Assembly: GCA_948435375.1 (NCBI GenBank)
Contig: CAOJGQ010000009.1
Coordinates: forward strand, 1-34,278
Source: an uncultured Candidatus Saccharibacteria bacterium
GTDB taxonomy: Bacteria; Patescibacteriota; Saccharimonadia; Saccharimonadales; Saccharimonadaceae
Direction: 5' to 3'
Length of the DNA: 34,278 nt
Shown here piece after piece: positions 15,882-31,848 of this stretch (position 1 is the first letter of the stretch; the number at the start of each line of letters is the position of its first letter). Below the pieces are notes generated by a model. The model made no database searches. It was not told the origin of the DNA and worked only from the letters and a program-made list of their open reading frames with translations. Position numbers and translations under genes: made by a program.

Positions 15882-16238
15882 TGGTGGAGCTGCCGGATAC
15901 TGCCTCCGGGTCCGAAAAATTACGCTGGATACCATTCTACATGCTTAGTTCCCTGTTTATCCCGCAAATCCCACTAGCTACAAGGAACGCAGCCTGGGTG
16001 CTTTAGCCTTGGTTTTCGAGTGAAATGCCGGCTATGCTTTCACCTTATCCTCGTTGTATGATAATCTGACACCTACGAAGACTTAGTGTTAGACCAGTCT
16101 AGAATAAAATATCTCTAGGCGTACGCAGGTGCGTAAAGCACATGCTTTGAAGTGTTTTTTGCACTTATTTACAATACTTACGGTATTACGCGACATGCCT
16201 GGTATCTGTTAATGATCCGTCTAAACTTTGTCAGCCCC
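15882..16238 (-). ncRNA. ssrA: tmRNA
   Basis: This 357-nt transfer-messenger RNA rescues stalled ribosomes. The ends pair as in all tmRNAs: 5' GGGGCTG and 3' CAGCTCCACCA. The tag frame starts with GCA after TAAGT and reads AKNTSKHVLYAPAYA before TAG, a 15-residue tag ending AYA instead of the usual LAA. The T arm is unusual: stem CCGGA/TCCGG but loop GGCAGTA where TTCRANT is expected. The 5' D-like segment has AGTTTAGACGG in place of GGATTCGACGG, so a conserved GG is also GT here. A promoter (16249-16277) and terminator are present. Confidence 0.93.
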
Positions 16239-20275: not shown

Positions 20276-20312
20276 AAAAAAGACCAATTCGGTAAGGAGT
20301 TGGTCTTTTTTT
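20276..20312. terminator. Bidirectional terminator between rpmB and rnpB
   Basis: AAAAAAGACCAA and TTGGTCTTTTTTT form a 12-bp stem with A and T tracts on both sides, so it can end the ribosomal-protein operon (+) and rnpB (-). Confidence 0.92.
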
Positions 20313-20762
20313 GAGCCTTCAGTAAGCCGGGTTCTGTAATCTACATATCGCTATGAAGACCGACAGCCATCTATCTAGGCACAAAATTACTTTTATGCTC
20401 CAGCGGTGATCGCGCATCCTCGAACCAAGGTATCTAGCGCTCCTTGCAGCCAGTAGGGTTTGCCTCCTCCCCATGTCACCATGAGGAGCTGTGGGCTCTT
20501 ACCCCACTCTTTTCACCCTTGCCTGGCACCCTAGAATCGCCAAGATTGTGATTTTCTTCTCTTGTAGCGCGTCTTCCTCAACGAGCAAGAGAAAAATAAA
20601 TTGCAAGATTGACGATTATAGGATGTCAGGCGGTTTAAGTCTCTGTGGTACTTTCCCTACCCTTTCGGGCGGTCGCCGTTAGCGACTACTGTGTTCTATG
20701 CTGCCCGGACTTTCCTCTCGACTAATCTGTAGACTAGTCCAGCGACTGTCTTTCAGGCTCTC
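20313..20762 (-). ncRNA. rnpB: RNase P RNA (bacterial type A-like)
   Basis: The catalytic RNA of RNase P, which trims tRNA 5' ends. The conserved core is visible on the minus strand: GAGGAAAGTCCGGGC near the 5' end, ACAGAACCCGGCTTA near the 3' end, and P1 formed by GAGCCT and AGGCTC at the two ends. The length, about 450 nt, exceeds the E. coli RNA (377 nt). The extra bases seem to lie in the peripheral helix around 20540-20640 (TCTTCTCTTG against CAAGAGAA). A promoter (20767-20795) and the shared terminator at 20276 flank it. Confidence 0.96.
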
Positions 20763-29826: not shown

Positions 29827-30153
29827 ATGCCGATTATCAAGTCTGCAAAAAAAGCTGCCCGCCAGGCAGAAAAGCGCACCGCGCACAACCAACAAATCAA
29901 AAAAACCATCAAGAATGCCCTCAAAGCTTTCAAAGCTGACCCAACTCCCGAAAATCTTTCCAAAGCTCAGTCCGAATACGACAAAGCTGTTAAGAAAGAT
30001 CTCATGAAGAAAAACACCGCTTCCCGCCGCAAAGCCGCTCTCGCGAAATACGCCAAAGAAGCTAAAAACGCTCCCAAAGCCACCGCAAAAGCCACAAAAT
30101 CCACCAAGACTGCCAAAAAGTCAACCAAAAAGACCGCCAAAGCGGCAGCCTAA
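29827..30153 (+). CDS. rpsT: Ribosomal protein S20
   Basis: This 108-residue 30S protein begins MPIIKSAKKAARQAEKRTAHNQQIKKTIKNALKAF, typical of S20, with the later KKDLMKKNTASRRKAALAK helix. The last ~27 residues are an extra Lys/Ala/Thr-rich tail (KATAKATKSTKTAKKSTKKTAKAAA) beyond the usual ~86-residue length, resembling histone-H1-like tails. It is a single-gene unit with its own promoter and terminator. Confidence 0.95.
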   Translation: MPIIKSAKKAARQAEKRTAHNQQIKKTIKNALKAFKADPTPENLSKAQSEYDKAVKKDLMKKNTASRRKAALAKYAKEAKNAPKATAKATKSTKTAKKSTKKTAKAAA

Positions 30154-30216: not shown

Positions 30217-30236
30217 CCTAAAGATACCCGTATCAA

Positions 30237-30297
30237 AACAAGAAATCCCTAGGACCATAATGCGACATTCTACGATGCGCGGTCCTAGGGTTTGTTT
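30237..30297 (-). terminator. Terminator-like hairpin after the 124-residue gene
   Basis: On the minus strand, AAACAAACCCTAGGACC pairs with GGTCCTAGGGATTTCTTG over ~12 bp plus an AT-rich outer part and ends in TTTT. It lies 26 nt past the stop of the small gene at 30323. Confidence 0.7.
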
Positions 30298-30322
30298 CCC
30301 AATATTTAGTTGTAAATTGAAA

Positions 30323-30697
30323 TTAGCCAATAATCACCGTCACTGTCGCGCAGTTGGTGACAGTAAACAGTTCTTCGCCGTCGTGCGAAAACACGACTTT
30401 TGACGAGTACGATCCACCGCTAGACACAACAAATGTCCGGTGATAGGTCGAGATCATGATGTAGCTTTTGCACGGCATTGATTTGCCGCAATCAAGGTTA
30501 ACCTCTCTGATCTCATAGACCCTGTTTTCTTGGATGGTACTACACAGCTTCACAATGTTTTCGGAGTTCTTGCAATGTGATAGGTCGGCCAAAAACTCTT
30601 CCACAGAGATTGACTCCATTTCGGAGTAGCCATACCGCTTCTGTTTCAAAGCCGTCGCCTGCAATCTTACACCATCGTGATTAATCATGTTAATCAT
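30323..30697 (-). CDS. Hypothetical small protein behind a structured leader
   Basis: This 124-residue soluble protein is of unknown family: MINMINHDGVRLQ..., then helices (SVEEFLADLSHCKNSENIVKLCSTI) and a strand-rich half (VYEIREVNLDCG...YIMISTYHRTFVVSSGG...VVFSHDGEELFTVTN). Cysteines occur in HCKN, LCST, DCG, PCK and NCA. AAGGAGG lies 5 nt before the ATG, one of the strongest ribosome sites in the window, right after a GCCCC-AAT-GGGGC hairpin. Base composition is balanced, unlike the C-rich neighbours, hinting at foreign origin. The ~360-nt leader upstream is described separately. Confidence 0.65.
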   Translation of the reverse strand: MINMINHDGVRLQATALKQKRYGYSEMESISVEEFLADLSHCKNSENIVKLCSTIQENRVYEIREVNLDCGKSMPCKSYIMISTYHRTFVVSSGGSYSSKVVFSHDGEELFTVTNCATVTVIIG

Positions 30698-31060
30698 GTT
30701 ATCCTCCTTCGCCCCATTGGGGCTCTCTCTTTTTATTTTTTAGTTTCCTGCTCCCCTACCAGGTAGCATAGAGACCATAAACGTTTTGTCTTGATTCCTC
30801 AAGAGAGTTTACTGTCTCAATGCTACCCACTAGGTTTAGGATAAGCTAAAACAAAGAGTTTCGGAGGTAATACGAAAGTTAGTGTAGCTTAGGGTATCAG
30901 CTAGGCGAAGTACTAAACTAAGCGTTTTACAACTTCCTATTGGGTTTTAATGTACTTAAGCTCCTAAGCCCTGGAACTTAGTTCCATAAGCCTTAGAGGA
31001 ACCTTACGGTTCCTTAATAAGGTATTTCGCCCTTCGGGCTTCATCCTTATCAAGCTTATG
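30698..31060 (-). ncRNA. Candidate large structured RNA (~360 nt) or riboregulatory leader
   Basis: A strong promoter (31066-31094) starts ~360 nt of non-coding RNA leading to the gene at 30697. Helices visible on the minus strand, 5' to 3': CCATAAGC/GCTTATGG closing a domain with GATAAGG/CCTTATT, GCCC-GAA-GGGC and GGAACC-GTAA-GGTTCC (a GNRA tetraloop); GGAAC-TAA-GTTCC; GGGCTTAGG/CCTAAGC enclosing AAGTAC/GTACTT; GGTAGCATTGAGAC/GTCTCTATGCTACC enclosing CTTGA/TCAAG; and GCCCC-AAT-GGGGC just before the ribosome site. It does not match tmRNA, RNase P, T-box or riboswitches I know. Confidence 0.6.
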
Positions 31061-31065
31061 GTTCC

Positions 31066-31094
31066 ATTGTAGCACACATCACCAAAAAAGTCAA
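31066..31094 (-). promoter_or_regulatory. Promoter of the structured RNA
   Basis: On the minus strand, TTGACT (31089-31094), a 17-nt spacer and TACAAT (31066-31071), with an A/T-rich upstream tract almost identical to the one at the rRNA promoter (AAAAGTATTGACTTTTTT). Confidence 0.8.
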
Positions 31095-31206
31095 TACTTT
31101 TTATACTTATTTTGCAAAAAAGCGAGAAATATTCGTAACAAAACAGAAGTAAACTCTAGCAAAAATCCGCCAACTGCAACACATTCCCCCAGAATCAGCA
31201 AAAATC

Positions 31207-31848
31207 CTATTTCTTCCCTACCTCTAATAAAAACATCTTCACCAGCGTCCACGGCTCCAAATAAACATTCGCCTCCCCCTTCATCCGCATATCTAGCTCC
31301 CCCAACATTTTCACCACGCGTCGTTCCTTACTTCCCTGTTTCGCCTCAAATTTCTTCAGCGCCTGCGTCACCATCAGCCCCAAAAACATATACGGGTCCT
31401 GTTCCAGTTCAATCTTCTCCACCATCCGCACCGCAGTTTCACCATCCCCTCTTAGCGCCGCATCAAAAATCCCAAACACCTGCCGCATCTCTGGTTTCTG
31501 CGCCAAATTAAACTCCCGAATCTCCACCCCCATCTCTTTCAACCGTTTATACCCCGCTGACCGCTTATCAATCTTTGTCTCCCAGATGATCACCTCATGT
31601 TCCGTCTCGAGATAATCCACAATTTTTTCCCAAACCGCCCCATTTTCATTGAGGTCTTTCAGCAAAATCCGCCTTTTATCGCCAAAACCACCAGAATCTC
31701 CTCCAAACAGTGAAACCCCCTGAAAAATACTCGGCAAATCCGCTAGCGTCAAACTCTCCCCCTCAAAAACCTCGTAGTTGCCCCCTAACTCGCTCTCTAC
31801 GGCCTTCGCCGCCCGAACCCTGTCATCACCCACAAAAACTCTTACCAT
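31207..31848 (-). CDS. holA: DNA polymerase III delta subunit-like protein (short HolA)
   Basis: This 213-residue protein resembles the N-terminal and middle parts of the clamp-loader delta subunit: MVRVFVGDDRVRAAKAVESEL (Y/F-G-D.....), LPSIFQGVSLFGG, RILLKDL, VIIWETKIDKRS and the helical collar part EQDPYMFLGLMVTQALKKFEAKQG. The typical protein is ~330 residues, so much of the C-terminal collar is missing or reduced, as in other small Patescibacteria genomes. The ATG at 31848 is preceded by AAGCTT and by GAGAGG at ~12 nt. It is 77 nt downstream of mutM. Confidence 0.75.
   Translation of the reverse strand: MVRVFVGDDRVRAAKAVESELGGNYEVFEGESLTLADLPSIFQGVSLFGGDSGGFGDKRRILLKDLNENGAVWEKIVDYLETEHEVIIWETKIDKRSAGYKRLKEMGVEIREFNLAQKPEMRQVFGIFDAALRGDGETAVRMVEKIELEQDPYMFLGLMVTQALKKFEAKQGSKERRVVKMLGELDMRMKGEANVYLEPWTLVKMFLLEVGKK

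Follow-up and report, generated by a model that had tools for sequence, protein, structure and literature searches.

A candidate family of structured RNA frames enclosing unrelated accessory genes in Saccharibacteria

An insertion between rpsT and holA

We analyzed a stretch of 34,278 nucleotides (hereafter, the window) from an uncultured Candidatus Saccharibacteria bacterium (assembly GCA_948435375.1, contig CAOJGQ010000009.1). The unit described here lies between rpsT (29827-30153, plus strand) and a holA-like gene (31207-31848, minus strand), the latter call resting on a weak match to TIGR01128. The unit is encoded on the minus strand; an earlier note on this DNA, made from the sequence alone, gave no strand. 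In each of the 54 genus relatives that carry rpsT and holA convergently on a single contig, 244-433 bp (median 314) separate the start of rpsT from the C-terminal end of holA, compared with 1383 bp in the window; the unit is thus an insertion of about 1 kb at the rpsT-holA site. Its ends can be given only approximately, since holA protein identity to the nearest relatives is only about 65%. The features of the unit are as follows:

30217-31206, no strand assigned: approximate extent of the insertion of about 1 kb, from the rpsT terminator to holA
30247-30290, minus: P4, terminal hairpin CCCUAGGACC-GCGCAUCGUAGAAUGUCGCAUUAU-GGUCCUAGGG; covaries in five members, inner part conserved
30298-30316, minus: 3' strand of P3, UUUACAACU..UAUUGGG, in the 3' UTR; predicted pairing
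30323-30697, minus: cargo gene, 124-aa orphan protein P0001, no family or homologue
30703-30707, minus: Shine-Dalgarno (SD) sequence GGAGG
30711-30723, minus: small hairpin GCCCC-AAU-GGGGC directly 5' of the SD; predicted fold, same hairpin in G370:C11
30745-30925, minus: middle leader domain, in which the long hairpin 30829-30760 lies; predicted fold
30926-30944, minus: 5' strand of P3, CCCAAUA..AGUUGUAAA; predicted partner of 30316-30298 on the far side of the ORF (pair probabilities 0.68-1.0)
30948-30963, minus: motif II, GAGCUUAAGUACAUUA, comprising the 3' strand of P2 (30963-30957) and the conserved single strand AGUACAUUA
30964-31051, minus: variable arms inside P2, namely GAUAAGG/CCUUAUU with GCCC/GGGC, AGGAACC-GUAA-GGUUCCU, and CUAAG/CUUAG with UGGAAC/GUUCCA; predicted fold
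31052-31058, minus: 5' strand of P2, UAAGCUU, inside motif I (CAUAAGCUUGA); predicted extreme 5' end of the transcript
31066-31094, minus: promoter TTGACT-17-TACAAT with TG before the -10 box (extended -10); 10 of 12 consensus positions matched

The composition of this stretch had been said to differ from that of its neighbours, and this holds for GC skew, which is about -0.1 to -0.2 here and about -0.45 in most adjacent blocks. Elsewhere in the window, both on the minus strand, we observed a divergent tmRNA (15882-16238; Rfam, 86.5 bits) that was missed by ARAGORN, and a class A RNase P RNA (20308-20761) that has about 90 nt inserted compared with the model.

Promoter, leader and 3' region

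The promoter had been described as strong and rRNA-like. We agree that it is strong, but not that it is specific to rRNA: its first 33 bases or so recur at about 19 further sites in the same 0.91-Mb genome, which makes it a strong promoter of a type general to the genus. The same type precedes other members of the family described below. From the position of the -10 box, transcription is predicted to start at about 31060-31058.

The leader is about 360 nt long, reaching 30698, and has a minimum free energy (MFE) of -126.8 kcal/mol; its dinucleotide shuffles gave -90.2 +/- 5.2 kcal/mol (z = -7.0), none of 100 being equally low. The elements singled out in the earlier note were recovered: well above the eight helices it proposed are predicted, among them the hairpin AGGAACC-GUAA-GGUUCCU with its GUAA tetraloop (31014-30997) and the long stem, which is present as 10+5+6+6 bp closed by a GGAA loop (30829-30760), and the very strong ribosome site corresponds to GGAGG at 30707-30703, followed by ATG at 30697. 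Inside P2, the arms of relatives are fewer or different, and both the 3' part of the middle leader domain and the long hairpin are common to the G370:C11 unit. RNA structure, absent from the earlier note on this side, resumes 3' of the gene (30316-30247). The structure of the proposed discrete RNA of about 360 nt was thus borne out, and it is better read as part of an mRNA frame formed by the 5' and 3' UTRs than as a separate species.

No Rfam riboswitch, intron or ornate RNA matched the unit or its relatives at the gathering score, and permissive scans returned chance-level E-values only. Nor did we find in the leader the tandem repeat array that is the hallmark of Type III (ToxIN-like) toxin-antitoxin systems.

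A family with common ends and unrelated cargo

Homologues of P0001 were found neither in 60 relatives nor in the genome contig collection, viral contigs, phages, plasmids or the PDB, and its fold prediction was unusable (pLDDT 39). The key to the unit was a paralogue in the same genome, a weak match extending beyond the promoter (C5:31360, locus L002). Its 5' end has CATAAGCTTGATAAGGA and AGCTTAAGNACATTANNACCCAATA in common with the window unit, and the tail after its gene matches as well, with GCGCATCNTNNAATGTCGCATTATG inside the stem; its gene encodes a MYG1/UPF0160 protein (PF03690, 2.6e-63). Since L002 combines the same non-coding ends with a different gene, the frame is the conserved part and the gene its cargo.

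From these two copies we built two covariance models, R1 for the tail and R2 for the 5' part. Across 380 genomes of the phylum, R1 alone returned nothing besides the two. Over 174 genomes of the genus, R2 identified, at E <= 1e-3, relatives from seven further genomes (G370, G023, G120, G067, G068, G110 and G066), a third copy in the same genome (C8:4152) and weaker matches. These relatives have the promoter together with motifs I and II, and also more structured sequence, an SD and a gene. For three of them, the 3' tail also scored with R1 (6e-11 to 8e-8), an independent confirmation, since R1 had played no part in finding them. A third model (R3), built from 17 sequences, brought in a further own copy, at C18:1385, as well as members from other genera of the family; all members outside the genus are weak. 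The window unit thus has relatives on C5, C8 and C18 of its own genome, and seven or more further genomes of the genus contain them too. Three weak R2 or R3 matches (L222, L223, L226) were judged to reflect the promoter only. Exact-pattern scans of the viral contigs and of the genome contig collection produced chance matches; the best of these, L158, was discounted because it lies inside a 435-aa ORF.

In every member with a resolved cargo, the RNA encloses a protein gene. MYG1-like proteins are the cargo of three units (L002, G370:C9 and G120). A 160-aa protein is shared by G023 and G370:C11 (57% identical), whose leaders are of different types, that of G023 being the H5 type of the MYG1 units and that of G370:C11 the window type; homology between this protein and P0001 was tested and not found. 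Other cargo includes a small protein with matches to PADLOC Unk_01 (1e-24), sometimes fused to CARF, and to phrog_30542; a protein that looks secreted, with an apparent N-terminal signal sequence (L252, G000:C18:1385, minus strand), and several orphans. The suggestion that the 124-residue product might be the bound partner of the RNA is therefore unsupported, because the same frame holds several unrelated proteins in different members.

Helices P2 and P4 at the two ends

The first helix common to the family is P2 (CATAAGCTTGA / AAGCTTAAGNACATTA), at the predicted 5' terminus. Its consensus, UAAGCUU/RAGCUUA, is paired in 99% of cells among 17 sequences, wobble changes included, and one full compensatory change (UAAACUU/AAGUUUA) occurs in G370:C9. 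From the position of the -10 box, the transcript would begin with P2 and so would have no free 5' end. The conserved single strand ACAUUA lies after P2. Sequence conservation in this region (CAUAAGCUU, ACAUUA) exceeds what simple end protection would need, hinting at a specific binding partner. In the window, motif I is predicted to pair with GGCUUAUGG when the leader is folded in isolation, and with motif II when the full transcript is folded; the GGCUUAUGG partner is seen in the window only.

Compensatory changes occur at 5 of 15 pairs of P4 (five members) and at 9 of 17 pairs of H5, a leader hairpin (GUGGGAU...ACCCCAC) common to eight members. Pair counts taken on the alignments A6 and A9 lean towards the structure, since both were fitted to the models. 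In other members, P4 is replaced by a plain terminator-like hairpin. The search for covariation that the earlier note had proposed thus returned homologues with covarying helices, and its idea of a new ornate RNA is supported to the extent that this is a new, large and covarying structured RNA.

A predicted zipper across the coding sequence

P3 would join the 34-nt leader window directly after motif II to the stretch just before the 3' hairpin, with the coding sequence in between. It is 16 bp long in the window unit. Its sequence varies among members and complementarity is retained: CCCGAUAG.. pairs with ..UAUCGGG in G370:C11, AAGCGAGAAC with GUUCUCGCUU in G000:C8, GCAAAUUCC with GGAAUUUGC in G370:C12 and GAAACAGCC with GGCUGUUUC in G785, and the own copy on C18 has a perfect P3 over ten pairs (CUCUUGCAAA/UUUGCAAGAG). 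Summed over ten representatives, duplex energies were -163.2 kcal/mol with the units' own partners and -90.3 +/- 11.9 kcal/mol with permuted partners, and none of 200,000 permutations was equally low, in a test that is independent of any alignment and whose windows were set by rule, after the pairing had first been noticed. For the seven later-found members alone, three of which lack a convincing P3, the same test gave P = 0.012. P3 is weak or missing in L228, L229, L233 and G120b.

The unconstrained MFE structure of the whole predicted message of the window unit (820 nt) holds all 7 pairs of P2 and all 16 of P3. The SD is located more than 200 nt downstream of P3 (5' strand at 30944-30926, SD at 30707-30703). 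Applied to whole leaders and 3' UTRs, RNAduplex was uninformative, because long sequences always pair, and was dropped. A further helix joining the 5' and 3' ends (P1, GGAGA/UCUCC) was discarded because its 5' strand sits upstream of the predicted start.

A possible function in protecting messages

With about even confidence, we read these units as a family of mRNA frames with closed ends, by which strongly transcribed accessory messages are protected. Sequence comparison shows the family, its P2, P3 and P4 helices, the unrelated cargo, the insertion and the lack of any preferential occlusion of the SD. The strong promoter would start transcription such that the first nucleotides enter P2; the ACAUUA single strand would follow, and P3 would then join leader and 3' UTR across the coding sequence. 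With P4 closing the 3' end, the message, if it folds this way in vivo, would form a closed loop, both ends being sequestered in helices, and the SD and reading frame would sit in the loop and remain open. Such a message should resist end-dependent decay, both by 5'-end-dependent nucleases and by 3' exonucleases, giving high and lasting expression of an exchangeable accessory gene. The frame probably shields and boosts its messages, and protection from end-dependent decay would be its best-supported function. Ribosomes must pass the P3-closed loop, so co-transcriptional translation may delay zipping.

Across 22 leaders, the complement of the SD was not enriched, and in several it fell below shuffles; SD sequestration was thus rejected as the mechanism of the family, and the result fits protected rather than switched-off messages. 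It likewise makes a regulated leader unlikely, that is, a riboswitch or protein-sensing RNA turning the gene on and off by alternative pairings such as motif I with GGCUUAUGG or with motif II. The window leader can form either pairing, the MFE structure there pairs CCUCC with the GGAGG of the SD, and the ACAUUA strand is conserved; yet the alternative P2 partner is confined to the window, the target genes are unrelated and Rfam has no match.

The nearest described case is the icaR mRNA of Staphylococcus aureus, in which base pairing between the 3' UTR and the SD region prevents initiation and creates a site for RNase III (PMC3868564). End-to-end pairing of bacterial mRNAs is known for single messages such as this one, and sequence and covariation point to a 5' UTR-3' UTR pairing of the same kind here. 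The window P3, at 16 bp, could likewise be an RNase III substrate that lowers expression, and a long helix of this kind can destabilize a message as in icaR, which speaks against stabilization. We nevertheless consider such negative control improbable: P3 of the window leaves the SD free, and a strong promoter together with a strong SD argues against a silenced gene. In icaR the pairing concerns one gene and covers the SD, whereas here it lies far upstream, covaries across numerous unrelated genes and joins a helix at the 5' terminus and a terminal hairpin.

The exchange of cargo between frames may have occurred by recombination or horizontal transfer. It also brings to mind a mobile gene cassette, in which the conserved 5' and 3' RNA parts would be working ends and the cargo would be moved in trans by a recombinase or reverse transcriptase. 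Insertion at one site only, unrelated cargo in one frame, the 160-aa protein in two leader types, and several copies per genome in a patchy distribution across the genus all agree with such a cassette. We still regard it as distinctly unlikely, since, in contrast to transposon ends, every unit has a P3 sequence of its own, we identified no target-site duplication or mobilizing enzyme, and ordinary recombination could account for the exchange. A more specific version of it appears quite improbable: a factor would recognize the conserved ends of a closed-loop RNA, or of its cDNA, and so spread unrelated accessory genes in tiny genomes, with a private zipper for each copy. The hok mRNA of Type I toxin-antitoxin systems also folds back from its 3' to its 5' end, but a hok-like message is highly improbable here, given a product of 124 aa rather than a short hydrophobic peptide, a MYG1-like enzyme among the cargo, and promoter-like sites that both lie on the minus strand of the unit, with none on the opposite strand.

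Returning to the closed-end frame, it resembles other systems only in part. Stabilizing 5'-terminal stem-loops of the ompA type similarly place at the very 5' end a helix that would shield the message, but in the frame the sequence is conserved, the leaders are modular and very long, and another helix reaches the 3' UTR. OLE, ROOL, GOLLD and HEARO are alike in length, in their many helices and in GNRA loops; here, by contrast, there is no Rfam match and the RNA encloses a protein gene. Integron gene cassettes also carry genes that can be exchanged and are often orphans, together with a structured 3' element, whereas these units have their own promoter, a long RNA leader and dispersed sites, and their pairing spans the gene rather than an attC site. 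Our literature search returned no paper joining Saccharibacteria with structured RNA, or with an untranslated region and promoter. The conserved RNA frame is undescribed. A recurring, covarying zipper round many unrelated genes would make the closed-loop mRNA a standing device of a bacterial lineage, and would give both a direct handle on the control of message lifetime in bacteria with tiny genomes and a marker by which their accessory genes could be found.

Related leaders and unusual units

Several further loci were observed beside the family. In G110:C19 (L142, minus strand, about 1385-1132), a strong promoter and a structured leader of about 235 nt, without motifs I and II, precede a 398-aa orphan gene that adjoins a MYG1 homologue, possibly a second class of such leaders. 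At G000:C8:13013 (L253, plus strand), a leader of about 590 nt precedes an orphan gene; it has a P2-like helix of other sequence (UAGGCUU/AAGCCUA) and no convincing P3. An apparent minimal form, consisting of P2, CACAUUU and SD only, was found before a membrane protein gene in another genus of the same family (L239). Finally, G120:C3:37256-39396 (L210) contains two units on the same strand about 2 kb apart, hinting at a cluster of such genes.
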